From: Polynucleobacter ibericus
Lineage (GTDB): Bacteria; Pseudomonadota; Gammaproteobacteria; Burkholderiales; Burkholderiaceae
Direction of reading: 5' to 3'
Length of the DNA stretch: 64,000 nucleotides
Assembly (NCBI RefSeq): GCF_018687955.1
Contig: NZ_CP061309.1
Coordinates: forward strand, 1,359,564-1,423,563
In this document: one piece after another, positions 9,178 through 25,391 of the stretch
Numbering within the stretch: the stretch's first letter is position 1
How the letters are laid out: every line of letters starts with the position of its first letter
Program-made: the position numbers and the translations under genes
Notes under the pieces: model-generated
The model's input: only the letters and a program-made list of their open reading frames with translations
The model's database searches: none
Told to the model about the DNA's origin: nothing

Positions 9178-9375
9178 ATGCCGATTAAGCTTGCCACCCA
9201 ATCTCAGGTACGCCAATACAACGTTTCTAATGCTGTAGCGTCTGCTCGTATTGAAGGCGTTGTTCCAACTAAGCAGTTAGAGCAAAACCTTACTGACTAT
9301 ATTTCTGGCAAAAAGAGTATTGCGCAATTAGTGGAAGAAACTAAACAACGTTATGTCACGCTACGACGCGGATGA
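9178..9375 (+). CDS. VbhA-like antitoxin of a class I Fic module
   Basis: A 65-residue protein with the class I Fic inhibitory motif S/T-xxx-E-G/N, here Ser22-ARI-Glu26-Gly27. In this family the Glu inserts into the Fic active site and blocks productive ATP binding. The length and position match VbhA-type antitoxins. It overlaps the following fic gene by 23 bases in another frame, so the two are translationally coupled. The pair sits alone between two tRNA-Lys 3' repeats. The start is the first ATG, with no recognisable ribosome binding site. Confidence 0.8.
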   Translation: MPIKLATQSQVRQYNVSNAVASARIEGVVPTKQLEQNLTDYISGKKSIAQLVEETKQRYVTLRRG

Positions 9376-9946
9376 CACTTACTGCTACCCAGGTACAGAC
9401 GTACTTCGAAACAAAGCAGAAATTACTAACGCACAAGATTTAGACTCCTACGAAGGGGAGCTATCCACTCTGCGTTCAATTGAAATTCTAGAAAATCCTG
9501 TAGCTGGTCAATTTGATCTTGCCCATCTTCAACGCATTCATCTAGCCCTCTTTCAGGATGTATATGATTGGGCCGGAAAGATCCGCACAGTAGATATTAG
9601 TCGCGGCAATAGTCGTTTTGCCAATGTGCGCTTTATTGAATCAGCCGCAAACGATATCTTCAATAAATTAGCCCGTGAAAACTGGCTTAAGGGGCTGGAT
9701 GCTGACACCCTGTCAAAAAGACTGGCTCACTACCTATCAGAGATCAACGCCCTACACCCTTTTCGAGAGGGGAATGGTCGCGTACAACGCATATTTATCT
9801 CCCAACTTAGTCAATCAGCAGGCTATCAACTCGACTACTCCGACCTGGAGCAGGAGCAAATTTATCGAGCAATGGAGCTAGCCTTTAATGGCGATGAACT
9901 CATTCTTGCCAATCTCATTCTTGAGCGACTAGAGAAAAGCCAATAG
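9353..9946 (+). CDS. fic: Fic-domain protein adenylyltransferase (toxin)
   Basis: A 197-residue protein consisting of essentially one Fic domain. It has the complete catalytic motif HPFREGNGRVQR at residues 135-146, including the catalytic His135, so it should transfer AMP from ATP to target proteins. It lacks an N-terminal inhibitory helix of its own, which fits class I, where inhibition comes from the separate antitoxin encoded just upstream with a 23-base overlap. Known VbhT/FicT toxins modify type II topoisomerases; the target here is not known. The module fills nearly all of the space between two tRNA-Lys repeats. Confidence 0.9.
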   Translation: MSRYDADDTYCYPGTDVLRNKAEITNAQDLDSYEGELSTLRSIEILENPVAGQFDLAHLQRIHLALFQDVYDWAGKIRTVDISRGNSRFANVRFIESAANDIFNKLARENWLKGLDADTLSKRLAHYLSEINALHPFREGNGRVQRIFISQLSQSAGYQLDYSDLEQEQIYRAMELAFNGDELILANLILERLEKSQ

Positions 9947-10031: not shown

Positions 10032-10038
10032 ATTATGC

Positions 10039-10071
10039 AAAGGGATCACAGCAATGTGGTCCCTTTTCTTT
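10039..10071 (+). terminator. Terminator after tRNA-Lys fragment 2
   Basis: A 12-bp stem (AAAGGGATCACA with TGTGGTCCCTTT, one G-T pair) closes a GCAA tetraloop and is followed by TTTTCTTTT. It may also act on the converging MFS gene, which ends at 10140. Confidence 0.8.
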
Positions 10072-10139
10072 TGGCTGAATGGAATGGATTATTGAAGGTA
10101 TCCATTTCTACTTCTACTATAGAGATTTGGCGCTGGGAC

Positions 10140-11315
10140 TTAAGTCTCTTTTTTATAGTCCACCCAAAAGGCCATTAATACAAAAGCTACTAACGCACAA
10201 CTGCCTGAGAACATGAATGCATAAATCGGCGCTACCGATTCGTATATCCAACCAAAGAAAAATGAGGCTGGGAAAAGCATTAATCCCGTGATTAAATTAA
10301 ACCAACCAAAAGCTGTACCAGCCAATCCCTTGGGGGCCATATCTGCTACCAACGCTTTCTCAACCCCTTCTGTAGCCGCCTTAAATAGACCATAAATGCC
10401 AAAGAGTGCAAATATTTGGTAGGTGGTGAGCCCAGGTAAACCCATGCATATGTAGAAAAAAGCAAAAGCAATCCAAGCAATCAGAATAAATAGCTTTCGC
10501 CCAAATCGATCAGACAAAGCCGATAAAGGTGTTCCAAATAAAGTAGTGATGAGGGAGATTGCGGCCCATAAAAGCGGAATTTGCTCTTGAGGAACCCCTG
10601 CCTCTCTCGCCCTTAACAACAAAAACATATCTGAAGAATTGGCCAAAGCAAAGATTCCAGCTACTACTAAATACCTTTTAAATTGATCTGGCATGCCTTT
10701 CAGAGACCAGCTAAATTTACTGGCTTGCGGGTTGGCCTCCCTCTGCGGTTCTTTAATGCACAAAGCAAGAGTCACTGTAATGACTGCCGGCACGATTGCC
10801 CAAAGAAAGATATCTTTAAGCGGAACACCCATGGATAAAAATAAAGCAGCCAACAGGGGGCCAATTACAGCGCCTGCGTTGTCCATCGAGCGATGTAAAC
10901 CAAATGTAACGCCGCGTTGATTCTCATTGACTGTTTCAGCCAGCAGAGCATCTCTCGGAGAACTGCGCAGACCTTTACCCATGCGATCTGTAAAACGAAT
11001 CGCCAAAACCCATAACCATGAGTTAGCAATCGCAATGAGCGGTCTCCCAATACCTGCTAGCGTGTAACCCAGAACAATCCAAGGCTTTGCTTTTTTAGTG
11101 CGATCAACAATGACGCCTGAAACTAATTTAAAAATACTAGAAGTTGCTTCAGCAATTCCTTCGATGATACCCAGCGCTTTAGGCCCTGCCATTAATACTG
11201 AAGCTAGGTATAAAGGCATTAGCGGATAAAGCATCTCGCTAGCCGAATCATTTACTAGGCTAATAAGTCCAATCAGCCAAACGGTGCGAGGAAGGGCGAG
11301 GATGGTTTTAAGCAT
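10140..11315 (-). CDS. Major facilitator superfamily transporter
   Basis: A 391-residue membrane protein with about twelve hydrophobic segments and the MFS loop motifs (DRTKKAKP after helix 2, DRFGRK in the second half at ALSDRFGRKLF). The branch resembles uncharacterised MFS proteins often annotated as multidrug or sugar-phosphate-like permeases. The substrate is unknown. It is the first gene inside the cassette bounded by tRNA-Lys repeats 2 and 3, transcribed away from the selenium genes. A role in export or import of a pathway product is only a guess. Confidence 0.85.
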   Translation of the reverse strand: MLKTILALPRTVWLIGLISLVNDSASEMLYPLMPLYLASVLMAGPKALGIIEGIAEATSSIFKLVSGVIVDRTKKAKPWIVLGYTLAGIGRPLIAIANSWLWVLAIRFTDRMGKGLRSSPRDALLAETVNENQRGVTFGLHRSMDNAGAVIGPLLAALFLSMGVPLKDIFLWAIVPAVITVTLALCIKEPQREANPQASKFSWSLKGMPDQFKRYLVVAGIFALANSSDMFLLLRAREAGVPQEQIPLLWAAISLITTLFGTPLSALSDRFGRKLFILIAWIAFAFFYICMGLPGLTTYQIFALFGIYGLFKAATEGVEKALVADMAPKGLAGTAFGWFNLITGLMLFPASFFFGWIYESVAPIYAFMFSGSCALVAFVLMAFWVDYKKET

Positions 11316-11348
11316 TACAGACTCAATTTAGCACCATAGTCTCATTTT

Positions 11349-11376
11349 TTGTCGTTTTAAATGGCACTCCTATAAT
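11349..11376 (+). promoter_or_regulatory. Putative sigma70 promoter of the DUF3147 gene
   Basis: A -35-like TTGTCG (11349-11354) is 16 bases from a consensus -10 TATAAT (11371-11376). The start codon at 11406 lies 30 bases downstream. Confidence 0.55.
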
Positions 11377-11405
11377 GGGGTAACCCTTCAACAACAAAGG
11401 CTGAG

Positions 11406-11756
11406 ATGACTTGGATCATTACAAAATATCTATTAACAGCCGGAATGGTTGTATTCATCTCTGAAGTGGCCAAGAGAAGCGATAGGTTAGGCGGCTTTAT
11501 AGCGGCTTTGCCCTTAATGACGCTTTTAACACTCGTATGGCTGTACGTAGAAAATCAGCCCGAAGAAAAAATTGCTAATCACGCTTATTACACCTTCTGG
11601 TATGTGATTCCGACATTACCTATGTTTCTATTGTTTCCATACCTGCTTCCAAGACTAGGCTTCTGGCTAACGATGGGGGCAAGTGTTATGGCTACAGTAA
11701 TCTGCTTTAGCTTGTTTACTGTGCTGATGAAGAGCTTTGGAATTAATTTGGTCTAA
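11406..11756 (+). CDS. DUF3147-family small membrane protein
   Basis: A 116-residue protein with four hydrophobic segments and short charged loops (EVAKRSDRLGGFIAALPL), resembling the DUF3147 family of unknown function. It is preceded by a good promoter and lies between the MFS gene and the EgtB-like gene. It may be the first gene transcribed in the direction of the selenium cluster, although 129 bases separate it from the next gene. Confidence 0.65.
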   Translation: MTWIITKYLLTAGMVVFISEVAKRSDRLGGFIAALPLMTLLTLVWLYVENQPEEKIANHAYYTFWYVIPTLPMFLLFPYLLPRLGFWLTMGASVMATVICFSLFTVLMKSFGINLV

Positions 11757-11885
11757 ATAAAAACCATCTGAATGGGGTTTTGGTGATTCTTGAAGTCTAT
11801 AGGCGAATAGAAGCCCCCACAAAAGGATTCTTATTTCTCGGCCCCCTATTTCCAATTAAAAACTAAAGATTGCGTAAAATAATTT

Positions 11886-13037
11886 ATGCCTAATTCTTCG
11901 GCCAACGATTACCTACTTTATTTTCCTTATCCAACAGCGTCAACGTTGTCGGAGTGGCTAGAAGAAAGTAATGGCATTACACGCCATATTCTCGAGAATA
12001 TGCCAGCGGCAGATCATGTAGTTCCCCAGCTCAATATTTTGAACCCTCCCCTTTGGGAATTTGGTCACTTAACTTGGTTTCATGAATTCTGGATTCATCG
12101 TGATGGCCAAGTAGACCGAGCCTCATACCTGAAGGATGCTGATTACTTATTTAATTCTTCAGAGATTGCGCATCAAGATCGCTGGACAACTCCAATGCCA
12201 TCACTCGAAAGTCTTCTGGAGTACAACCACAACATTATTAGCAGCACCCAAGAATTGCTGTGTAAACCAATTGACAATAAAACCGCCTACTTTGTTCAAC
12301 TAGCGATCTTGCATCAGGATATGCACAATGAAGCATTTGCTTATATGTGGCAAACCATGGGACGCTCCAAGCCCTTCGAAGCATTCTCCAAGTCAAGCAA
12401 GCCTCTAGCCAATGCGCAGACCTGGATCCATTTTCCAGAATCTTCAGTTGAAGCTGGCTCTCAACAGGGCTCTGGATTTATTTTTGATAATGAAAAATGG
12501 CTGCACTCCATTCATCTTCCCGCCTTTGATATTTCGAGCAGGCCAGTTATCAATGGCGACTACCTAGAATTTATAGAGTCGCCAGCGAACAAATCTGGCA
12601 TCAAAACTGTTGCGCCACCATCTCACTGGAAAAAGGATGGGGATATTTGGCTTGAGCGTTTCTTTAATGAATGGCTTCCTTTAAACCCTGCATCAACATT
12701 ACGCCACGTTAGCTACCTCGATGCCTTACGCTTTTGTGAACATCATCAAGTACGCTTACCCAACGAACATGAGCTCAGCCAGTTAATGAGACAACCAGGA
12801 ATAGCTTGGCACGCCTCAAACCTATGGGAGTGGACTAGCAGTACATTTGCTCCCTTCCCTGGATTTAGCACTGATCCCTATGTCGACTATTCACAACCCT
12901 GGTTTGATGGCACCTATCAAGTCCTAAAAGGGGGTAGCCCATTTACACCTGATCGCCTTAAGAGAATAGGGTTTCGTAACTTTTATCAAGGCCACAGAAG
13001 CGATCATTTTTGCGGCTTTCGCACGTGTTTACTCTAA
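11886..13037 (+). CDS. senA: SenA-like selenoneine synthase (EgtB-family non-haem iron enzyme)
   Basis: A 383-residue protein of the EgtB superfamily. The N-terminal DinB-like domain carries the three iron ligands, His61 in NPPLWEFGHLTWF and His143/His147 in LHQDMHNEAF. The C-terminal sulfatase-modifying-factor (FGE) domain ends in GFRNFYQGHRSDHFCGFRTC. EgtB forms a C-S bond on hercynine; its paralogue SenA forms a C-Se bond with a selenosugar (established in the senABC pathway). I choose SenA because a selD/senC gene follows 59 bases later and a SenB-like gene and egtD lie in the same cassette, while no egtC, egtA or egtE is present. By sequence alone EgtB cannot be excluded. Confidence 0.78.
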   Translation: MPNSSANDYLLYFPYPTASTLSEWLEESNGITRHILENMPAADHVVPQLNILNPPLWEFGHLTWFHEFWIHRDGQVDRASYLKDADYLFNSSEIAHQDRWTTPMPSLESLLEYNHNIISSTQELLCKPIDNKTAYFVQLAILHQDMHNEAFAYMWQTMGRSKPFEAFSKSSKPLANAQTWIHFPESSVEAGSQQGSGFIFDNEKWLHSIHLPAFDISSRPVINGDYLEFIESPANKSGIKTVAPPSHWKKDGDIWLERFFNEWLPLNPASTLRHVSYLDALRFCEHHQVRLPNEHELSQLMRQPGIAWHASNLWEWTSSTFAPFPGFSTDPYVDYSQPWFDGTYQVLKGGSPFTPDRLKRIGFRNFYQGHRSDHFCGFRTCLL

Positions 13038-13096
13038 ATTGGGTAAGCTCATGATCTTATGTCGATTTTCAACTTTAAATAGATTATTCACTTCTT

Positions 13097-14143
13097 ATGA
13101 CTACACCTTATAACGGCCGCCTCACCTCTTTATCACATGGCGGAGGATGTGGCTGTAAGATTGCGCCCGGCGTCTTAAGCGACATTCTAAAAACTTCGCC
13201 GATGCGCAATATACCCGCCGCCCTTTTAGCAGGTTCTGATAACAACGAAGATGCTGCTGTATATCAGATTAATGAAAATCAGGCGATTGTTGCTACCACT
13301 GATTTTTTTATGCCAATTGTGGATGATCCGTTTGAGTTTGGACGCATCGCTGCAACAAATGCGATCTCTGACATTTATGCAATGGGCGCACAACCCCTTT
13401 TTGCACTCGCGCTACTCGGTATGCCAATTCAAGTTTTACCATTAGAAGTAATACAGCAAGTCACTGCTGGCGGCGAATCGGTCTGTAATGATGCTGGCAT
13501 CATGATTGCTGGTGGTCACTCCATTGATACAGTAGAACCTATTTACGGATTGGTAGCGATCGGCATAGTCGATCCAAAAAATCTGAAACGCAATAATGGC
13601 GCTCGTGCTGGAGACAGTATTATTTTAAGTAAACCATTAGGTGTGGGCATACTATCAGCAGCCCTGAAAAAAGAAGTTCTCTCAGAGGCTGGCTACAAGC
13701 AGATGATCGCTCTGACTACCAAGTTAAACAAGCCCGGTGTTGCGCTCTCTCGACTCGAGGGTGTGCACGCGCTCACGGATGTTACTGGCTTTGGTTTGGC
13801 TGGACACCTTTTGGAGATGGCCAGGGGCTCTCACTTGCAGGCTCAGTTAAATTGGAATGCTATTCCAGTAGTGCAAGAAGCTATTGAACACGTCAAAGCA
13901 GACATCTTTACAGGCGCATCCACACGGAATTGGGCGGGTTACAGCAATGAAGTTGAGCTAGCAAGCCCCCTTGGGCTGTGGCAACAAAATGTATTAACCG
14001 ATCCACAAACCAGCGGTGGTTTATTAATTGCTTGCGCGCCAGAACAAGAGGCCGAAGTCCTATCTATCCTAAATGCCGATGGATTTACAAGTGCCAGTAA
14101 GATAGGTCACTTTGCTACGGGTTCCGGCCTGACTGTTGCTTAA
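13097..14143 (+). CDS. selD: Selenophosphate synthetase (SelD / SenC)
   Basis: A 348-residue ATP-dependent enzyme making selenophosphate from selenide. The N-terminal active-site loop GGGCGCK gives Cys18 and Lys21, matching the essential Cys17 and Lys20 of E. coli SelD. The Cys is not replaced by selenocysteine. The TDFFMPIVDDP and GGHSIDTVEPIYG motifs bind metal and ATP. No selA, selB, tRNA-Sec or mnmH/ybbB is in the window. Its place between senA and a PhnDCEE-like importer points to service in selenoneine synthesis, for which the paralogue is called SenC. Whether it also serves selenocysteine elsewhere in the genome cannot be seen. Confidence 0.93.
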   Translation: MTTPYNGRLTSLSHGGGCGCKIAPGVLSDILKTSPMRNIPAALLAGSDNNEDAAVYQINENQAIVATTDFFMPIVDDPFEFGRIAATNAISDIYAMGAQPLFALALLGMPIQVLPLEVIQQVTAGGESVCNDAGIMIAGGHSIDTVEPIYGLVAIGIVDPKNLKRNNGARAGDSIILSKPLGVGILSAALKKEVLSEAGYKQMIALTTKLNKPGVALSRLEGVHALTDVTGFGLAGHLLEMARGSHLQAQLNWNAIPVVQEAIEHVKADIFTGASTRNWAGYSNEVELASPLGLWQQNVLTDPQTSGGLLIACAPEQEAEVLSILNADGFTSASKIGHFATGSGLTVA

Positions 14144-14176
14144 TTATTCTTTTAATCCTAACCAAAAGATCATTCC

Positions 14177-15058
14177 ATGAAATTCCTACAAATTACTCTT
14201 CTCAAAAAATTCTCTGCACTATTGCTAGCATTTGGTTTTGCTTGCAGCATCAGCACTGGAGTCTTAGCCCAGGATGTCTTGCGTATCTCAGCTATTCCTG
14301 ATGAGTCGCCTACAGAGCTACAGCGCAAATTTAAACCGCTTGGCGACTACCTCTCCAAAGAAACTGGCATGAAAGTGGAATTCACCCCGGTGACTGACTA
14401 TGCTGCAGTTGTAGAGGCTTTAGCAACCAAGAAGATTGATATGGCTTGGCTAGGTGGGTTTACTTATGTGCAGACCAAAATTAGAACAAATGGCACAGCT
14501 ATTCCGATTATTCAGCGTGTTGAAGATGAAAAATTTACGAGCGTCTTTATCGTGCCTGCTGATAGCACATTAAAAACGCTAGGCGAATTAAAAGGTAAAA
14601 CGATGGCCTTTGGTTCCCCCTCTTCCACTTCGGGTCACTTAATGCCACGTTATTTTTTAATGCAAGCCGGCATTAACCCAGATAAAGACTTTAAGAACAT
14701 CGCCTTTTCAGGAGCGCATGATGCAACAGTAGCCTTTGTAGCTAGCGGCAAAGCTGATGTTGGAGCACTTAACGCCTCGGTATGGACAAAATTGAACGAG
14801 GCTAAAAATCCGAATGCACTCAAATCAAAAGTACTCTCTACAACGCCCCCTTATTTTGATTACAACTGGACGGTACGGGGAGATTTAGATCCAGCTTTAG
14901 TAAAGAAGATTACTGATGCTTTCTTAAAGCTCGATGCAAGCAATCCTAACTACAAAGAATTGATGGATCTTCAACGTGCAAGCAAATATGTAACAACCAA
15001 ATCATCGAATTACGACGATATTGAAAAAGCTGCTCGCTCAGCTGGATTAATTAAGTAG
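14177..15058 (+). CDS. Periplasmic binding protein of a PhnD-like ABC importer, putative selenium oxyanion transporter
   Basis: A 293-residue protein with a signal peptide (cleavage after VLAQ, about residue 32). Its mature part begins DVLRISAIPDESPTELQRKFKPL, typical of the phosphate/phosphite/phosphonate (PhnD) binding-protein superfamily. No lipobox is present. The gene follows selD by 33 bases and heads a binding protein-ATPase-permease-permease set. A branch of this family that neighbours selD genes has been named putative selenate-binding (TIGR04553, from memory). No phosphonate-degradation gene (phnGHIJKLM, phnX, phnW) is nearby. The selenium assignment is therefore from context; phosphite or phosphonate remains the alternative. 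Confidence 0.75.
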   Translation: MKFLQITLLKKFSALLLAFGFACSISTGVLAQDVLRISAIPDESPTELQRKFKPLGDYLSKETGMKVEFTPVTDYAAVVEALATKKIDMAWLGGFTYVQTKIRTNGTAIPIIQRVEDEKFTSVFIVPADSTLKTLGELKGKTMAFGSPSSTSGHLMPRYFLMQAGINPDKDFKNIAFSGAHDATVAFVASGKADVGALNASVWTKLNEAKNPNALKSKVLSTTPPYFDYNWTVRGDLDPALVKKITDAFLKLDASNPNYKELMDLQRASKYVTTKSSNYDDIEKAARSAGLIK

Positions 15059-15062
15059 TCTC

Positions 15063-15842
15063 GTGGGATTTTCCTTACAACAACTGAGCTTTAAGCACAG
15101 CAATGGCACACCCGCACTAAGCCAAGTATCTTTAGCAGCTAGTGCCGGTGAGTGCATTGCCATTATTGGACCTTCTGGCTCAGGTAAGACAACGCTTTTG
15201 AACATCCTCGCTACTGCTTTAAAGCCAACTCATGGAAGCACTGAAATACTGGGAGCCAATCCCTGGAGTCTATCGAAATCATCCCTCAGAAAATTACGGT
15301 CAACCATTGGTTTAGTCCATCAAGCACCACCGATTCCTTTGAGACAACGCGTCATCACTGCCATTCTTGCAGGTCGGCTCGGGCAATGGCCTCTATGGAA
15401 ATCAATTTTGTCATTAATTTATCCGGTGGATATTATTGGTCCGCAGTCCTGTCTTGAGCGCTTAGATCTCACTGATAAGCTATTTGATCGGTGCGATTGT
15501 CTATCGGGCGGCCAACTACAACGTGTCGGCGTTGCCAGAGTGATGTATCAAGAGCCGCAACTGATTCTTGCTGACGAGCCAGTATCTGCAATGGATCCTG
15601 TACTGTCTGATCTCACTATTAGCGTCTTGATTGCCGAGACCAAGAAACGAAATGCCACCTTAGTCTCAAGCCTTCATGCAGTAGATATTGCCCTGCGCTG
15701 GTTTCCACGCATTATTGGAATTCGAGATGGTCAAGTCATGTTTGACTTACCCTCCAGTGAAGTTGGCGAGGCCATATTGAAAGAACTCTATGCATCAGAA
15801 CTCGGCGGTCTCCCGATGCAAACCAACCATCCTATGCTCTAA
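15063..15842 (+). CDS. PhnC-like ABC transporter ATPase (putative selenium importer)
   Basis: A 259-residue ABC ATPase starting with GTG 4 bases after the binding-protein stop, so coupled translation is likely. It shows Walker A GPSGSGKTT, a Q-loop in VHQAPP, the signature LSGGQLQRVGVARV and Walker B LILADEP. The layout matches PhnC of phosphonate importers. It powers the two permeases encoded next. The unusual Asp/His region SLHAVDIAL follows the family's H-loop. Confidence 0.88.
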   Translation: MGFSLQQLSFKHSNGTPALSQVSLAASAGECIAIIGPSGSGKTTLLNILATALKPTHGSTEILGANPWSLSKSSLRKLRSTIGLVHQAPPIPLRQRVITAILAGRLGQWPLWKSILSLIYPVDIIGPQSCLERLDLTDKLFDRCDCLSGGQLQRVGVARVMYQEPQLILADEPVSAMDPVLSDLTISVLIAETKKRNATLVSSLHAVDIALRWFPRIIGIRDGQVMFDLPSSEVGEAILKELYASELGGLPMQTNHPML

Positions 15843-15875
15843 CGGCATCTAGGCGCACTCCTTTTTCAATTCGCA

Positions 15876-16703
15876 ATGCTGCTAAAAAGCACTCCTAGAG
15901 ACCCTGCAACACCCTATCGTTTTTTTGGACTGGTAGTTGCTATTTGTATTCTATGGCCCATGTTACAACTGGCTCAGTTTGAGCCCATGCTCTTGATTGA
16001 TCCTAACAACACTAAAGTCATGGGTGACTTTTTAGAGCAATTTTTTCCACCCAATATTCAGCCAGATTTTTTATCGCTTGTTCTAAAAGCTACTGTTGAA
16101 ACTTTAGCCATGGCGACTGCAGGAATAGCCTTAGCAATGATCATTGCCATTCCACTTGGCTTAATCATTTCTTATAACTTATCAATTTCAAGAATTGGCC
16201 CAAGTTCTGATCATCAGCTTGCTCAATTTGTAAGATTTCTTGCGCGTACTTTGATGTTAGTGCTACGAGGCATTCCAGAAATTGTATGGGCGCTTTTGCT
16301 AGTCAGAGTATTTGGCCTGGGTCCTATTGCGGGTGTTTTGGCTATTGCTATCACCTATGGCGGCATGTTGGCAAAGGTCTACTCTGAAATTCTAGAATCT
16401 GGCAACACCCTGCCCGCTAGAGCACTCATTCTTACTGGAAGCGGACGCATAGCCTCATTTCTATATGGTCTACTACCAAGCTCAGCCCAAGAGCTTGCCT
16501 CTTACACCGTCTATCGCTGGGAGTGCGCTGTTAGGGCCTCTGTAGTCATGGGATTTGTAGGCGCGGGTGGACTGGGTCAACTCATGGATCAATCTATGAA
16601 AATGCTCAATGGTGGAGAAGTTTCTACTATCTTGATTGTTTTCTTGGGTTTGGTATTACTGGCTGACTATATTAGCTTGGTAATCAGAAAGCAGTTAGCA
16701 TGA
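15876..16703 (+). CDS. PhnE-like ABC transporter permease 1
   Basis: A 275-residue permease with about six membrane segments and the PhnE-type coupling region (ALILTGSGRIASFLYGLLPSSAQ in part), then RWECAVRASVVMGFVGAGGLGQ. It is 33 bases downstream of the ATPase gene and overlaps the second permease gene by 4 bases. The two permeases are clearly paralogous and would form a heterodimeric channel. Confidence 0.88.
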   Translation: MLLKSTPRDPATPYRFFGLVVAICILWPMLQLAQFEPMLLIDPNNTKVMGDFLEQFFPPNIQPDFLSLVLKATVETLAMATAGIALAMIIAIPLGLIISYNLSISRIGPSSDHQLAQFVRFLARTLMLVLRGIPEIVWALLLVRVFGLGPIAGVLAIAITYGGMLAKVYSEILESGNTLPARALILTGSGRIASFLYGLLPSSAQELASYTVYRWECAVRASVVMGFVGAGGLGQLMDQSMKMLNGGEVSTILIVFLGLVLLADYISLVIRKQLA

Positions 16704-17506
16704 GCAGGCCTATTAGCATTCAACCAGCTCGTCAATTTTGCTTGAAGTGTCTTCTCATGCTGTTGATTATTTTTGGCGTAACCATTAGCAGCTTTATTTA
16801 TCTATCGCTAAATCCAGCCGATCTATTTACCTTCCAGGCCATGAAAAATATGGCGGAGTTTATTGGACGATTTTTCCCACCAGATCTCAGCGTTGATTTT
16901 TTAGAAAAAATTTGGCAAGGCATTCTCCAAACACTGGCTATCTCGGCTTTAGCAACACTCATCGCTGCGGCACTCAGCATTCTGATTTCACTTCCTGTAT
17001 CAGGCAGATTTGGGGCTATCGCTAAATGGCTATCGCGCTTCTTCTGTAACTTCCTAAGATCTGTGCCAGAGCTCGTTTGGGCAGCATTAATGGTTCTCGC
17101 TGTTGGCTTAGGACCGTTTGCAGGAACCTTAGCCTTAACACTTCACACCACAGGCGTTTTAGGAAGATTATTTGGAGAAACTTTAGAAAACAATCCAATA
17201 GCCGCGAGCAATGCATTGGTTCTGGGTGGCTCCGGAAGAATCGCCTCCTTTTTATATGGCACCTTGCCTGGCATTGCACCCCAACTACTCTCATATAGCC
17301 TTTATCGCTGGGAAATGAATATTCGCATGGCAACTATTTTGGGGTTTGTAGGCGCTGGTGGCCTTGGACAGATGTTGTATTACGAACTCTCACTCCTTAG
17401 AGAGGCACAAGCATCCACCGTGATTATTGCTATGCTGTTATTGGTAATACTAGTAGATCTCATCAGCACCAAACTTCGCCGTATTCAGATGCACAATTTA
17501 GGCTAG
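16700..17506 (+). CDS. PhnE-like ABC transporter permease 2
   Basis: A 268-residue permease paralogous to the preceding one, with matching motifs (LVLGGSGRIASFLYGTLPG and RWEMNIRMATILGFVGAGGLGQ). It begins with ATGA overlapping the stop of permease 1. Together with the binding protein and ATPase it completes one importer. The gene for EgtD follows after 32 bases, so transporter and methyltransferase are probably in one transcript with senA and selD. Confidence 0.88.
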   Translation: MSRPISIQPARQFCLKCLLMLLIIFGVTISSFIYLSLNPADLFTFQAMKNMAEFIGRFFPPDLSVDFLEKIWQGILQTLAISALATLIAAALSILISLPVSGRFGAIAKWLSRFFCNFLRSVPELVWAALMVLAVGLGPFAGTLALTLHTTGVLGRLFGETLENNPIAASNALVLGGSGRIASFLYGTLPGIAPQLLSYSLYRWEMNIRMATILGFVGAGGLGQMLYYELSLLREAQASTVIIAMLLLVILVDLISTKLRRIQMHNLG

Positions 17507-17538
17507 ATATCCTGATCCTCTTATAGACCATCGCCCTC

Positions 17539-18480
17539 ATGAAACAGAAATTAACTCAAGAATTACTGCTTAGCCTTACTGCCGATACACCATCGATATC
17601 GCCAAAGTTTTTCTATGATGAGATAGGCTCACATCTATTTGAAGTGATTACGCTCCTGGACGAATACTATCCAACTCGTACTGAAAAGTGGATTATGGAT
17701 AACTATCAAAGCGAGATTGCTAATGCAGTAGGTTCTTGCGATGCCCTCCTTGATCTTGGGGCGGGTAATTGCATAAAGGCTAGCCAGCTTTTTAATAGCA
17801 TTAAACCCAAGCAATACCATGCATTAGATATTTCAAAAGAGTTTTTAGAGACGGCTGTCGCTGATTTACGAAAGCAGTTTCCACAGATCAGCATGTCTGC
17901 CCATGCAGTTGATTTGAGCCAAACATTCACATTTCCTACTTTGCAAAACTTAAGGAAAATATTTTTCTTTCCGGGATCTTCAATTGGCAACTACGACCCC
18001 GACAAAGCAGATGCATTTTTTAGTAATCTAGCTATTCAGTGCAATGATGATGGTGGATTACTGATTGGCGTTGATTTAGTCAAGGATGTTCAGACTCTAA
18101 ATTGCGCCTACAACGATGCTTTGGGCGTTACAGCTGCATTTAATCTGAATGCCCTACTGAACATAAACAAGTTGATTGGTAGTAACTTTAATCCGGTGAA
18201 CTGGGAGCATTACGCTTTTTTCAACACATCCCTGTCTCGTATTGAAATGCATCTGCGAGCCCGCGATGATGTGAAAGTGACTATTCCGGAGTTGGGCTCA
18301 AAAGATCATGTTCTTACATTTAAAGCAGGTGATTTAATTCATACTGAAAATAGCTACAAATATACTCAAGATGATTTTGTAGAAAAACTCCGTTCCGCTG
18401 GATTTGAGAATATCCACTCTTGGACTGATCCTCAAAATCACTTCCTAGTCTGCTTCGTAAATGCAAGAAAGATTTCTTAA
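17539..18480 (+). CDS. egtD: L-histidine N-alpha-methyltransferase EgtD
   Basis: A 313-residue SAM-dependent enzyme that trimethylates histidine to hercynine, the shared precursor of ergothioneine and selenoneine. Family signatures are SPKFFYDEIGSHLFE near residue 20, the SAM loop LLDLGAGN, the FFPGSSIGNYDP asparagine region and the histidine-binding TENSYKY near the C-terminus. Length is normal (about 320). It follows the importer genes and converges on senB with a 4-base overlap of coding ends. In a cluster lacking egtA and egtC it supplies hercynine to SenA. Confidence 0.93.
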   Translation: MKQKLTQELLLSLTADTPSISPKFFYDEIGSHLFEVITLLDEYYPTRTEKWIMDNYQSEIANAVGSCDALLDLGAGNCIKASQLFNSIKPKQYHALDISKEFLETAVADLRKQFPQISMSAHAVDLSQTFTFPTLQNLRKIFFFPGSSIGNYDPDKADAFFSNLAIQCNDDGGLLIGVDLVKDVQTLNCAYNDALGVTAAFNLNALLNINKLIGSNFNPVNWEHYAFFNTSLSRIEMHLRARDDVKVTIPELGSKDHVLTFKAGDLIHTENSYKYTQDDFVEKLRSAGFENIHSWTDPQNHFLVCFVNARKIS

Positions 18481-19505
18481 AACTGCCTGCTCATTAGCTT
18501 ATTCAGTAATTTTTGAATTGATTCTTGCTCTTGCTGTGGGCTAATGAGATGCTTGCGAGCCTCGATACACTTTTTCAGTGCAGAGTAAAAATGTGCATCC
18601 GTTTCTGCTTGATGTATCAGAGTTGCAAGTGCAGCTTCATCGGCAACTGGGTAATAACCAGGGTAGTCGTCTCCAAGCAAACCTCGGTTACCCGCTATAT
18701 CCGATGCAATGATCGGAACACCTAACGCTATCGCCTCAGAGACAACATGTGCCCCACCCTCCATGCGACTAGAAATCACCATTAAGCGACTTTCAGAAAG
18801 AATCCTCATGGCTTCCTCATGGCTTAACTCGCCCATCCATCGATAGCGATCAAGTTTGTTGCTGTAGTCCTTAGCTGCACGCTCCATTTCAGGATTCATA
18901 GCCTTACCCATATGCAAGACATGCGCTTGAGAATCAGCAGGCATAAGAAATTGGCTACGGGCAATACAGAACGGATCTTTCTCCTCCCTCAGATGACCAA
19001 TTACCGCCACCTGAAAACCTGACCCCGTATTTTGACTATGAGCGCCCACCTCTACCGATTGAAAAATGACTTCAGCCTTATGTCGCAAGTTGGGCGGAAT
19101 AGAACCCAAGGCAGTTGATTGTAAAACTACCAAGGCATCTGCTAAATTCATTGATTGCAGTACTTCATCATGGATAGCCATATCTCGATATAGATCGGTG
19201 CCCGTCAAAACAAGTGCAACCGGCCTATCGGGATATTGCCTCTTAAATTGCAAAATAGATTGGTAACTACGGTAGGCATGCAGTGTAATGAGCAAACCAG
19301 CATCTCCGCCGGACCATGATTCAGTTACCCTAGAAACGTAACCCAGATCCCGTAAAAATACCTGCCAGCGCATAGCCGTCATACGGTTGCCATGCAGACT
19401 ACCAGGCGGTGCTGGTGTCACGATTTCAATAATAGGTTTGATAGGGAGCCTTACAGTAATTCTCCCAATATTAAACAAAATTGATACTTTTTTCCTGCTG
19501 CTCAA
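18477..19505 (-). CDS. senB: SenB-like selenosugar synthase (glycosyltransferase fold)
   Basis: A 342-residue GT-B-type protein. It has the opening IIEIVTPAPPGSLHGNRMTA, which I recognise from the family formerly called TIGR04348 and now known as SenB, the enzyme joining selenophosphate with a UDP-sugar to give a selenosugar. The second half has the donor-binding ISSRMEGGAHVVSEAIALGVPIIAS region. The start codon is TTG at 19505, supported by GGGAG 7 bases upstream. An internal start nearer RLPIKPIIEI is possible. It is transcribed toward egtD, and their ends overlap by 4 bases. Confidence 0.8.
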   Translation of the reverse strand: MSSRKKVSILFNIGRITVRLPIKPIIEIVTPAPPGSLHGNRMTAMRWQVFLRDLGYVSRVTESWSGGDAGLLITLHAYRSYQSILQFKRQYPDRPVALVLTGTDLYRDMAIHDEVLQSMNLADALVVLQSTALGSIPPNLRHKAEVIFQSVEVGAHSQNTGSGFQVAVIGHLREEKDPFCIARSQFLMPADSQAHVLHMGKAMNPEMERAAKDYSNKLDRYRWMGELSHEEAMRILSESRLMVISSRMEGGAHVVSEAIALGVPIIASDIAGNRGLLGDDYPGYYPVADEAALATLIHQAETDAHFYSALKKCIEARKHLISPQQEQESIQKLLNKLMSRQF

Positions 19506-19729
19506 TTAAACACTCCCATCAATTGATGGCTATCAATGCAAAAAGTATTTAGGATTGAGCTTTGGATCACAAGTAAGATGAAAAACGTCATGGGCTACAC
19601 CTATGCAAGATACGGCTAAGGCCATATAACTTCAGGTACAGAATCAAGCTTTAGGCAAATATGCAATCACTCAGTCAATTTTTGATCCTATAGGCCATTG
19701 ATTTGTATAGGATTTTAGGGCTGATACTT
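19506..19729. other. Gene-free stretch between senB and tRNA-Lys fragment copy 3
   Basis: The 224 bases contain the senB Shine-Dalgarno (near 19513-19517) and presumably its promoter. I see no further open frame with a plausible start and no integrase remnant. Confidence 0.45.
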
Positions 19730-19796
19730 CTTTGAATCCGTTAGTCGCGAGTTCAAAAACGAAGTTTCGACGCAGTCAATCTCGCCCGACCTACCA
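19730..19796 (+). repeat. Degenerate tRNA-Lys 3'-half fragment, att-like repeat copy 3
   Basis: It reads CTTTGAATCCGTTAGTCGCGAGTTC, then 23 foreign bases (19755-19777), then AATCTCGCCCGACCTACCA. Against copy 1 it has three substitutions, and the single G of the T-loop is replaced by the 23 bases. It cannot form a tRNA and marks the right boundary of the cassette with the selenium genes. Confidence 0.8.
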
Positions 19797-22706: not shown

Positions 22707-23765
22707 TTATTTATACCCAGCACGATCTAACAACCTTTGGGCTGCAACTTGATTTTTACCAATCGCTGCGACAGATATATTCTCCGCTTTGAATGGTCCT
22801 AATAACTTTAGTCCTTCATTATTAATCTTGACGGACTTGACTACCGGCCACTCATTATTACCGTCGGCAAAATATTCTTGGGCAGAGTCACTCGCCAGGT
22901 ATTCTAAAAACTGGACGGCCGCCTGGGGATGGGGTGCATTTTTAGCAACACCGCCACCAGCGATATTGATATGGGTACCAGTGGTTTTTTGATTAGGCCA
23001 GACAAAACCGATCTTAGATACCAGTTCTTGATCCTCTGGTTTGGTTGACCTTAGCAGCCTTACTAAGTAGTAGGAATTTGTCAGAGCTACGCCGCACTCA
23101 CCAGAAGCTACCGCCTTGATTTGATCCGTATCGCCACCTCTTGGTGGTCTAGCCATATTGGCTACCATTCCTTTAGCCCATGCTTCTGTGGCAGTCTCAC
23201 CACGTCGCTCAATCATGGCGCCAATTAATGACAGCATGTAAGGATGTGCGCCAGAGCGCGTACATACCTTACCTTTATTCATCGGCTCAGCCAACTTCTC
23301 ATAGGTATCTACATCTTGAGGACTTACCTTGGCTTTGTTATAAACCACGAGGCGCGCTCTCGTTGAAAAGCCAAACCAAGTAGAACCCTCTGCTTCAGGC
23401 TTAGAGCGTAAGTTAGCCGGAATACGACTCTCTAAATATTTTGATTGGATAGGTTTAAAAAAGCCATCAATCTGAGCGCGCCATAATCTTGCAGCATCGA
23501 CCATCAAGATGACATCAGCCGAACTATTGGCGCCCTCGCTTTTGATTCTTTCTGCCAAAGCATTGTCATCCGCTTCAATGCGATTAATTTTGATGCCAGT
23601 CTTTTTAGTGAAGTCACTATAGAGCGCCTCATCGGTTTGGTAATGACGGGCAGAATATAAATTTAATTCTTTATCGCCTGTTTGGGCTTGAACTGATCCC
23701 ATGCAGCAAAACATTGCCAGCAGAAAAGGGATGCCGAGTTTTGTGAAGCATTGTTGCTGAGTCAT
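22707..23765 (-). CDS. fbpA: Ferric iron ABC transporter periplasmic binding protein FbpA/AfuA
   Basis: A 352-residue protein from the ATG at 23765; an upstream in-frame ATG at 23825 would add a non-signal-like leader that overlaps the Fur box. The signal peptide ends at SVQAQ. The mature start KELNLYSARHYQTDEALYSDF is the classic FbpA/Idi opening, and the Tyr pair near LTNSYYLVRLL fits the Fe(III)-binding tyrosines. It delivers ferric iron to FbpB/FbpC encoded next to it. A Fur box 45 bases upstream indicates iron repression. Confidence 0.9.
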   Translation of the reverse strand: MTQQQCFTKLGIPFLLAMFCCMGSVQAQTGDKELNLYSARHYQTDEALYSDFTKKTGIKINRIEADDNALAERIKSEGANSSADVILMVDAARLWRAQIDGFFKPIQSKYLESRIPANLRSKPEAEGSTWFGFSTRARLVVYNKAKVSPQDVDTYEKLAEPMNKGKVCTRSGAHPYMLSLIGAMIERRGETATEAWAKGMVANMARPPRGGDTDQIKAVASGECGVALTNSYYLVRLLRSTKPEDQELVSKIGFVWPNQKTTGTHINIAGGGVAKNAPHPQAAVQFLEYLASDSAQEYFADGNNEWPVVKSVKINNEGLKLLGPFKAENISVAAIGKNQVAAQRLLDRAGYK

Positions 23766-23796
23766 AGTGCATAAATGATTAAAAGAGAGATATCTC

Positions 23797-23825
23797 AATT
23801 TATCATAAATGCGAATGATTATCAA
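23797..23825 (-). promoter_or_regulatory. Promoter with overlapping Fur box upstream of fbpA
   Basis: On the minus strand a -35-like TTGATA (23825-23820) and a TAAATT -10 (23802-23797) are 17 bases apart. Bases 23810-23824 match the 7-1-7 Fur consensus TGATAATnATTATCA at 12 of 14 positions and cover the -35 side. The site abuts the stop codon of fbpB, so fbpA can be transcribed independently of fbpB under iron control. Confidence 0.65.
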
Positions 23826-25391
23826 TTAAGATTTTGCAATCACCCTGGAGAGCAGTAGAACAGGGATAAGCCCTGCTAAAACAATGGTTAAGGAAGGTAA
23901 TGCTAGCTCTGCTAAGCGCTCATCGGCAGCCAATTGGTAGGTCGCAACCGCCAAGGTATCAAAATTAAATGGGCGTAACAGCAGTGTTGCTGGCAACTCT
24001 TTCATCACATCTACAAAGACAAATAGACCGGCTGTCATGAGGCTGCGCTTTAGCAGGGGGATGTGCACCCTCCTCAGAATCTGCGGCTTGGATAAACCTA
24101 GTAAAGCGGCTGAACCGTCCATGGATGGCGTAATTCTGGAAAGGCCTGCCTCAACACTTTGTAAGCTGGAAGATAAAAATCGGACTAAATAGGCATATAC
24201 CAAGACTAGCAAGCTCGCTGACATCCACCAAGCTAGCTGAAAAATCTCCAAGAACGACAAAATACCGATTGCCAATACAGCTCCCGGTAATGCATAGCCA
24301 AAACTGAGTAAGCGGTTAACCCAATGGAGTTTTGAATGCACTCGCACTGAATAGGCAAAAAAGATTGCCAGCGCCACAGAGATAACAGCAGTAATGAAAG
24401 ATACTGACAATGAATTGGTTAGCCAACCAAAATAACGAATATCTACATTCAGTCCCTGCTGATATAAAAGCTGCAAGAGCGCAAAGGCTGGTAGTAAGAA
24501 GCCACACAGCAAGGTGCCCCCGCAAAATATAAACGCAAGAGAGGCTTTCTTTCCAGATAAGCGTTTTGTAACAGACTTCGCTTGAGAGGATGAAGCGTAG
24601 CGTAATTTTGAACGGCTACTTTGCTCTATAAAAAAGATGAGCAAAATGAAACTCAGCAAGCCCAAAGCCAATTGGACTGCGGCCAAGCGATCGCCAAAAG
24701 AAAGCCAGGCCTTGAAAATTCCAGTAGCAAACGTTTGGACACCAAAGTAAGAAACTGCACCGAAATCTGCCAAGACTTCCATCAATGCTAATGCCATACC
24801 CGCAAAGATAGCTGGTCTTGCCATGGGGAGCACGAGGTTAATAAAACCTTGCCATGGGCTATAGCCAAGTGTTTCAGAAACTTCAATCAGACGTCGACTA
24901 CGCTCTATAAATGCAGTGCGCGTAATGAGGTACACATAAGGAAATAAACAAAAAGAGAAAGACCAAATTGCTCCAGCCATTGATCTCGGGTCAGGGAAAA
25001 ACCATAAAGTATCAACACCAAGTAATGTGCGTATTACTGTTTGTATAGGGCCGGAGAATTGGAGGAGATCTACAAAAAGATAGGCCATGACATAAGTTGG
25101 TACAGCCAGCGGCAGAATTAAAGCCCACTCAAAGATCTTTTTTCCAGGAAAGTCATAACTTGCAATGATCCAGGCATTACCCACTCCCAGAATAAATACC
25201 CCTACCCCGACACCAAAGATTAAGACCAAAGTGGAGGCAATGTATCCGCCTAGAACATAGTTCCATAAATGACTCAGCGTACTTGTAGCCAATACATCGA
25301 CACCTACCCCCGCCGGGAAAAGGAATGGCGCAACCAAGCCGAATAGCGGCAAAAATAGAAACACGGCAAGGGGTACCACAATAGGTTTCAT
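23826..25391 (-). CDS. fbpB: Ferric iron ABC transporter permease FbpB
   Basis: A 521-residue fused double permease with about twelve membrane segments and two binding-protein-dependent transport domains, each with an EAA-type loop (SETLGYSPWQGFINLVLPMAR and ALLGLSKPQILRRVHIPLL, shown in part). This is the FbpB/SfuB layout. It lies upstream of fbpA on the same strand with a 60-base gap that carries a Fur box, and divergent from fbpC. The order permease then binding protein, with a separate divergent ATPase, is less common than fbpABC. Confidence 0.9.
   Translation of the reverse strand: MKPIVVPLAVFLFLPLFGLVAPFLFPAGVGVDVLATSTLSHLWNYVLGGYIASTLVLIFGVGVGVFILGVGNAWIIASYDFPGKKIFEWALILPLAVPTYVMAYLFVDLLQFSGPIQTVIRTLLGVDTLWFFPDPRSMAGAIWSFSFCLFPYVYLITRTAFIERSRRLIEVSETLGYSPWQGFINLVLPMARPAIFAGMALALMEVLADFGAVSYFGVQTFATGIFKAWLSFGDRLAAVQLALGLLSFILLIFFIEQSSRSKLRYASSSQAKSVTKRLSGKKASLAFIFCGGTLLCGFLLPAFALLQLLYQQGLNVDIRYFGWLTNSLSVSFITAVISVALAIFFAYSVRVHSKLHWVNRLLSFGYALPGAVLAIGILSFLEIFQLAWWMSASLLVLVYAYLVRFLSSSLQSVEAGLSRITPSMDGSAALLGLSKPQILRRVHIPLLKRSLMTAGLFVFVDVMKELPATLLLRPFNFDTLAVATYQLAADERLAELALPSLTIVLAGLIPVLLLSRVIAKS

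Follow-up and report, generated by a model that had tools for sequence, protein, structure and literature searches.

The window, a stretch of 64,000 nucleotides from Polynucleobacter ibericus, contains a compact unit of eight genes (11886–19505) in which a full set of selenoneine enzymes is accompanied by a four-gene PhnCDE-like ABC importer, and it is probable that the unit combines selenoneine synthesis with the import of selenium, whichever selenium oxyanion is carried. By the families of its proteins the enzyme part is ordinary; it follows a known pathway and is one more selenoneine locus. The interesting part is the importer, which most likely serves selenium, as judged from which genomes keep it and which lose it.

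In the proposed pathway, the importer would take a selenium oxyanion, most likely selenite, inwards from the periplasm, after which selenite would be reduced to selenide by general cellular reductants, presumably encoded outside the locus. SelD would then provide selenophosphate, from which SenB would place selenium onto a UDP-sugar, giving a selenosugar. Meanwhile EgtD would trimethylate histidine to hercynine, and SenA, with iron and oxygen, would join hercynine and the selenosugar into a product that breaks down to selenoneine.

Table 1. Genes of the sen unit, with their positions in the window and the matches on which their assignments rest.
Gene and predicted product	Position	Strand	Evidence
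senA, selenoneine synthase (iron enzyme, joins hercynine and selenosugar)	11886..13037	+	NCBIfam SenA (NF041186) 379 bits, below cut-off 420; SenA clade
selD (senC), selenophosphate synthase, sole genome copy	13097..14143	+	TIGR00476 418 bits, cut-off 125
Periplasmic binding protein (SBP), predicted selenium oxyanion binder	14177..15058	+	TIGR04553 368 bits, cut-off 250; PhnD1 best PDB sequence match
ABC importer ATPase, GTG start	15063..15842	+	PhnC model 204 bits, under cut-off 266
ABC importer permease 1	15876..16703	+	PhnE model 208 bits, slightly under cut-off 217
ABC importer permease 2	16700..17506	+	PhnE model 236 bits, cut-off 217
egtD, histidine trimethyltransferase (hercynine-forming)	17539..18480	+	TIGR03438 341 bits, cut-off 290.9
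senB, selenosugar synthase	18477..19505 (start perhaps TTG at 19478)	-	TIGR04348 374 bits, cut-off 300

The gaps between the seven plus-strand genes are, in order, 59, 33, 4, 33, −4 and 32 bp, which fits an operon, and senB converges on egtD such that the ends of the two genes overlap by 4 bp. The senB gene may start at a TTG at either 19505 or 19478, and its family match begins at codon 26. No RNA switch or other Rfam element reaches the gathering score between 9000 and 21000 of the window. An earlier sequence-only reading had given positions for the enzyme genes, with a four-gene ABC importer between selD and egtD, and these are borne out by the open reading frame coordinates. Its span for the cluster, 10032–19796, does enclose the gene set but is too wide: at thresholds of E 1e-8, or 100 and 60 bits, neither the MFS gene (10140–11315, minus strand) nor the gene for a small membrane protein of 116 amino acids (11406–11756) finds a match in other stretches with sen or importer genes, so that the two do not appear to belong and the unit is taken as 11886–19505. 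None of the ten proteins examined in and around the cluster matches egtA, egtC or egtE, in keeping with that reading. The host is a small freshwater-type bacterium with a genome of a single contig of 1,904,269 bp. The unit is not a peculiarity of this strain, since relatives have it too: the closest named loci among the matches listed, three from Polynucleobacter (L183, L187 and L223), carry the identical eight genes in identical order.

The importer pairs a binding protein that scores above the TIGR04553 cut-off with genes for an ATPase and permeases, and the genome also encodes SelD. TIGR04553 is named ‘putative selenate’ and its model type is ‘hypoth_equivalog’; a literature search found no paper naming it and no ligand, binding or transport report for the importer's binding protein, and in titles and abstract openings there was no description of this importer together with sen genes. 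The best PDB match of the binding protein is PhnD1 (7s6g, 186 bits), which itself lies over the same cut-off with 338 bits. In structure alignment the two are 38–41% identical, and the residues of the PhnD1 pocket (Tyr, Ser-Thr-Ser, His, Asp and the capping Tyr) are kept. These contact residues are also identical in seven binding-protein rows below the cut-off; the pocket count leaves out locus L039, which has no such protein, and covers 13 of the 14 in that group. When the modelled binding protein is compared with known folds, the top rows are tied (ArrX 25.5, PtxB 25.3, PhnD1 25.2, HtxB 24.9), and they therefore show an oxyanion-binding fold rather than a cargo; confidence in the model is medium (pLDDT 79.8, falling under 50 in loop 148–152 with its Ser-Thr-Ser).

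What the pocket does offer is a prediction of which selenium oxyanion it might hold. The reported ligands of PhnD1 are phosphite, phosphate and methylphosphonate and, in the available parts of the papers concerned (PMC10284923, PMC5700983), its authors find no binding of hypophosphite, from which they deduce that three trigonal oxygens are needed while a tyrosine caps the fourth position. Selenite, without a fourth oxygen, would suit such a pocket and is the predicted cargo. A variant within the same explanation, in which the importer takes selenate or an organic seleninate, is improbable: selenate gains from the name of the NCBIfam model and from phosphate, an anion of four oxygens, fitting the related PhnD1 pocket in those same parts of the papers, yet the three trigonal oxygens and the capping tyrosine count against it, as they do, by our inference, against seleninates, which have two oxygens.

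Selenium as the cargo, in one form or another, is supported by the distribution of the importer. Within the genus, whose genomes are not independent of each other, all nine genomes that encode SenA, SenB and EgtD have the binding protein, as against none of the other 28; SelU, the selenouridine synthase, is present in all 37, so that selenouridine alone does not explain the pattern. One genome (G005), in which only selD and senB were found, has no importer. Moreover, there are two importer lineages, about 51% identical, the second of which occurs in G010, G030, G003 and G024; in G030 nothing of the importer lies between selD and egtD, and the other type is found at C1:1314929. Across 61 relatives, SenB is over its cut-off in 14/14 genomes with a binding protein over cut-off versus 4/47 without (Fisher 1.4e-10), and in the same 61 the binding protein does not track SelA (p 0.27). 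In a sample of the class, SelD is present in all 15 genomes with the binding protein, compared with 87/369 overall and with 0/7 for relatives of the binding protein below the cut-off. The selenium role that the sequence-only reading assumed for the importer is thus supported by co-occurrence, by co-absence and by a second, distant lineage being used.

The importer is not, however, restricted to selenoneine makers. It is missing from 13 of the 23 SenB genomes in the class sample and from two SenB relatives (G052 and G058), and its presence is probably no requirement for selenoneine synthesis. For named genomes the best 80 importer loci among the matches listed were considered, none titled as a cyanobacterium, all 80 with an ATPase match; in 34 of them selD, selA, selU or sen genes share the stretch with the importer, and in 46 the stretch has no selenium gene. 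(Some of these rows are not independent, L180 and L049 having contigs of equal length with identical gene positions and L198 and L164 apparently being one contig.) Six stretches around sub-cut-off binding proteins contain selenium genes in no case. Among the matches listed, SenB turns up in just 11 of a further 47 importer genomes, searched because they had no SenB nearby (G430 looks like G038 repeated, with SenB in the same place), which rules out an importer for selenoneine only. Also against such an importer are the Variovorax-titled loci, 8/13 of which have selD and selU in the stretch, among the matches listed. The P. kasalickyi locus (L184) has selD and the importer in a genome where SenB was not found, a pattern that points to selenium, not a selenoneine precursor, as the cargo. 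In the Comamonas neighbourhood L220 there is no selenium gene among the eight proteins scanned.

Since the pocket residues are shared by the binding protein, PhnD1 and the sub-cut-off rows, there is room for an explanation in which the enzymes make selenoneine while the cargo of the importer is phosphite, phosphate or a small phosphonate, and its place in the operon is fortuitous or serves phosphorus supply. The phosphorus oxyanions reported, in the available text, as PhnD1 ligands, the PhnC- and PhnE-like ATPase and permeases and the 46 loci without a selenium gene nearby all lend it something; it is nevertheless unlikely, given that the importer co-occurs with sen genes or SelD and is co-absent in G005, that four genomes have it in a second lineage, and that SelD accompanies the binding protein in every case in the class sample.

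The enzymes themselves agree with the complete SenA, SelD, EgtD and SenB set of the sequence-only reading in profile scores, tree and residues. The score of SenA below the NCBIfam cut-off is shared by the seven other full-length SenA proteins of the genus (372–398 bits) and by two SenA pieces in G003, and the cut-off is accordingly read as missing this branch. Against the EgtB model SenA reaches 194 bits (cut-off 360), and its best PDB match is SenA of V. paradoxus, at 191 bits versus at most 72 for EgtB. In a tree that left out PDB EgtB rows, rows shorter than 280 aa or under 70 bits and duplicate sequences, it falls with the characterised SenA 8ryz in a clade of 51 rows (support 100/100, branch length 2.48), opposite seven EgtB-type rows, and does not branch with egtB–egtD pairs. 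The SenA-diagnostic positions are kept 15/15, the window protein itself being among the rows used. His61, His143 and His147 are invariant in the aligned rows, and we take them, from EgtB, to be the iron ligands. No other EgtB/SenA-type match exists in the genome at E ≤ 1e-20. The tree and diagnostic residues rule out SenA as an EgtB, and support its prediction as a selenoneine synthase, a divergent member. An alternative that treats SenA as an EgtB, and ergothioneine as the product formed by the cluster from cysteine or gamma-glutamylcysteine, is, despite the sub-cut-off SenA score and the EgtB-type iron ligands, exceedingly improbable in view of the tree branch, the diagnostic residues, the PDB scores and the SenB and SelD of the cluster, and of seven other genus genomes where an egtB-type gene adjoins egtD and neither SenB nor the binding protein is over cut-off. 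Mutual exclusion between sen genes (nine genomes) and egtB-type genes (seven) is not claimed for the genus (overlap 0, p 0.12).

SelD contains the loop Cys18-Gly-Cys20-Lys21, the function of which is assumed to be that in E. coli SelD. It has one match in the whole genome and SelU is encoded elsewhere; necessarily, therefore, SelD must also supply selenouridine synthesis. In other words, the SelD of the cluster does not serve selenoneine alone. Selenocysteine use was rejected, SelA not being found in the source genome. Like selD, egtD has one copy. The best PDB matches of SenB are SenB structures (192–200 bits), and its active site is kept: 11 of the 13 residues studied in V. paradoxus SenB, with roles as given in the accessible text of PMC10891094, are identical (N20, T23, H58, D86, Q131, R155, K158, L209, E231, H235 and E239), and two differ (V157 to E, T214 to A).

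What the pattern of presence, absence and replacement provides is a specific candidate for a selenium importer, one with solved structural relatives. Going further, and tentatively, the TIGR04553 importer might be a dedicated high-affinity selenite transporter feeding SelD, which would make it the first to be identified in prokaryotes, and picocyanobacterial PhnD1 might perhaps be a selenium importer too, an idea based on the family score and the pocket residues. PhnD1, whose structures were solved with phosphorus ligands, is called paradoxical, in the text available, for its presence in picocyanobacterial strains without known genes for phosphite or phosphonate use; the importer reading, if true, would give a new view of this PhnDCE puzzle.

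Of the known systems, the closest is the senABC selenoneine cluster of Variovorax paradoxus, reportedly from Kayrouz et al. in 2022. The two have the SenA, SenB and SelD/SenC families and the predicted chemistry in common, the cluster and its enzyme chemistry being described, in the parts available, in PMC9814287, PMC10891094, PMC10903977 and PMC10702425. Here, in contrast, egtD and the four-gene importer are inside the cluster, senB is encoded on the other strand and converges on egtD, and SenA is divergent and below the NCBIfam cut-off. The egtB–egtD pairs of the genus likewise combine an EgtD with a member of the EgtB/SenA family, but SenA belongs to another clade, as seen for the one of the seven EgtB-type genes included in the tree (L097, in G001), which lies on the EgtB side. 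PhnD1 of the PhnDCE system of marine picocyanobacteria (7s6g, 5lq5, 5lq8) belongs to the same family as the binding protein here, from which it differs at the level of identity given above; the text of the PhnD1 paper, in its accessible part, contains no word starting ‘selen’, whereas the genes here lie in a selenium locus. As for the ‘putative selenate’ family itself, over whose cut-off the binding protein falls, the evidence points to selenium supply generally, and the pocket to selenite.

The importer and the enzymes form a unit (Table), in which all eight genes were found where a sequence-only reading had placed them. The seven forward-strand genes, spaced from a 4-bp overlap to a 59-bp gap, fit a single operon as judged from their arrangement, while senB is convergent with egtD, the two stop codons sharing 4 bp. 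The P. ibericus genome that contains the window is a single contig of 1.90 Mb. The span given in the earlier reading also takes in an upstream MFS gene and a small protein; at the thresholds used, neither has a match in the other sen or importer stretches compared, and the unit is therefore taken as 11886-19505. Among named loci (the best 80 of 580 confirmed), those nearest to the window that keep its gene order are from Polynucleobacter (L183, L187 and L223). Further upstream lies a Fic-type protein adenylyltransferase gene (9353-9946, forward strand), with VbhT/Fic model matches under their cut-offs, and at 22707-25391 on the reverse strand another ABC transporter (binding protein and permease) scores only weakly, under the cut-offs, with models for aminoethylphosphonate, thiamine and molybdate.

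Genes of the selenoneine and importer unit (window coordinates)
Gene	Position	Strand	Reader's placement
senA	11886-13037	+	confirmed
selD	13097-14143	+	confirmed
SBP (substrate-binding protein)	14177-15058	+	confirmed
ATPase	15063-15842	+	confirmed
permease 1	15876-16703	+	confirmed
permease 2	16700-17506	+	confirmed
egtD	17539-18480	+	confirmed
senB	18477-19505	-	confirmed

Among solved structures, the importer's SBP comes closest to PhnD1 from marine picocyanobacteria (PDB search: 7s6g, 186 bits; 5lq5, 177 bits). PhnD1, studied as a phosphite/phosphate protein, itself passes TIGR04553, the NCBIfam 'putative selenate' model (7s6g chain, 338 bits; cut-off 250). Its phosphate contacts, as described in passages of PMC10284923 (Tyr, Ser-Thr-Ser, His, Asp and a capping Tyr), all map by alignment onto the window SBP. 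Tyr75, Ser150, Thr151, Ser152, His181 and Tyr229 are kept in 107 of 107 rows over the cut-off and Asp228 in 100, the other seven having Asn; the second shell is more variable, Thr96 for instance being replaced by Ser in 10 of the 14 class rows. Since the PhnD1-type contacts are present also in seven sub-cut-off rows, they mark the size and shape of the anion and not selenium. Trp91, present in 107/107 rows over the cut-off versus 0/7 below it, marks the family, though not necessarily the pocket. The fold predicted for the SBP (pLDDT 79.8) resembles PhnD1, PtxB, HtxB, ArrX and AioX (Z 25.5 to 21.1), entries whose titles list oxyanions of phosphorus and arsenic as some of the ligands, and a phosphorus compound is a possible cargo. 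In the same passages, the authors infer that PhnD1 requires three oxygens in a trigonal arrangement and that the cap covers the fourth position, from which, by analogy, we predict selenite.

The distribution of the importer follows that of selenium genes. Among 61 relatives, the SBP exceeds the TIGR04553 cut-off in 14, all 14 of which have SenB over its own cut-off (p 1.4e-10), and it is absent from all 43 SenB-negative relatives. Four SenB-positive relatives are without it. Two of these genomes, G052 and G058, have SenA, SenB and EgtD and are real exceptions to the link; a third, G050, has no EgtD match and a SenA-type match of only 169 bits. In the fourth, G005, searches for SenA, EgtD and the SBP found none, and selD and senB stand alone (L050; C4:427372-429361), a pair that is perhaps a relic. 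Across the 37 genomes of the genus, it occurs in 9/9 genomes with SenA, SenB and EgtD, counting G003, whose SenA is in two pieces on two contigs, and in 0/28 others (p 8e-9), against a background of SelU (selenouridine synthase) in 37/37 and SelD in 36/37. Seven other members (G001, G007, G008, G019, G022, G025 and G036) have an EgtB-type gene of the ergothioneine type adjoining egtD; no genome of the 37 has both this pair and the sen genes of the nine, an exclusion that is not significant (p 0.12). In Polynucleobacter kasalickyi (L184, 8846-13298) the importer genes directly follow selD, and SenB was not found in the genome.

The gene order of the window recurs in four genus genomes (G018, G012, G021 and G011). 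In G010 the importer lies on the opposite side of senA, and in G030, G003 and G024 it lies away from the sen genes, the sen contig of G024 being only 5.8 kb and unable to reveal the distance. The SBPs of these last four genomes form a second lineage, those of G030, G003 and G024 being 78-80% identical to the G010 copy versus 50-52% to the window SBP. The SenA of G030 nests in the tree among window-type clusters; in this genome selD and egtD are direct neighbours, and the sole SBP match (E <= 1e-20) is of the second type (C1:1314929). These findings are most simply read as loss of the clustered importer from G030, with the second type taking over its role, and this apparent replacement is the strongest single argument for the importer being needed.

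A class sample of 369 genomes has 15 with the SBP and 23 with SenB. Ten have both (p 2.5e-10), and in 8 of the 10 the two lie within 17 kb. SelD accompanies the SBP in 15/15 genomes, compared with 87/369 overall (p 1.4e-10), and within those 87 the SBP still favours SenB (p 2e-4); seven sub-cut-off SBP relatives (E <= 1e-60) have SelD in 0/7. Among named importer loci (the best 80 of 580 confirmed), 34/80 have at least one of SelD, SenA, SenB, SelU and SelA (21/47 with full flanks), 17/80 have SenB, and 8/13 Variovorax-titled loci combine the importer with selD and selU. Against a tight link, however, no selenium gene is seen in 46 of these 80 stretches, and just 11/47 importer genomes searched, which correspond to 48 of the 63 loci without SenB nearby, gave a SenB match. 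On these data, the importer is assigned to selenium supply as a whole, its link to selenoneine being tight only among close relatives.

The P. ibericus genome has a single SelD, that of the cluster, a single SelU outside it (C1:753414-754325) and no match to SelA; selenium can thus go to both selenouridine and selenoneine, each supplied by the cluster SelD. In other words, the SelD identity proposed earlier stands, but its SenC label is functional and not exclusive. In the class sen clusters L147-L152, L168-L172, L174 and L175 the SelD frame is long; in the three scanned, a pyridine nucleotide-disulfide oxidoreductase domain (484-509 bits with TIGR03169; under the TIGR04369 cut-off) precedes SelD in a fusion that is probably the local SenC. 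SelD frames with one in-frame TGA (G041 C28:17953-18882, G048 C2:222109-223050 and one match each in G312, G391 and G194) are possible selenocysteine-containing SelDs.

SelD, EgtD and SenB of the window pass their NCBIfam cut-offs. SenA falls under its own (379 versus 420 bits), and so do all seven of the remaining SenA proteins of the genus that are full-length (372-398 bits); in the PDB it matches Variovorax paradoxus SenA at 191 bits, OvsA at 142-150 and EgtB at 72 at most. A maximum-likelihood tree of 58 rows places it with V. paradoxus SenA in a clade of 51. The branch between this clade and seven EgtB-type rows (which include one of the seven genus genes) has a length of 2.48 changes per site and 100/100 support. 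Three rows of the clade are labelled as without SenB. L090 is the window locus itself in a shortened stretch, L185 is truncated by the end of its contig, and L079 is a short locus from G038, a genome in which SenB is present. The only row with a SenB neighbour on the EgtB side is a second gene from L043 (G058), a stretch that holds egtD, an EgtB-clade gene, selD, senB and senA and perhaps makes both ergothioneine and selenoneine. The window SenA keeps 15/15 diagnostic positions (at least 90% conserved in SenA rows, itself included, and different in EgtB rows). The best matches of the window SenB are V. paradoxus SenB structures (192-200 bits, PDB search), and 11 of 13 residues examined in passages of PMC10891094 are identical. 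According to those passages, the change of T214 to Ala, found here, raises V. paradoxus SenB activity about 1.5-fold, and several replacements of V157, Glu not among them, are tolerated with lower activity; the window protein has Glu. The proposal of a selenoneine cassette was thus correct, and the cluster is a further selenoneine locus of the known kind.
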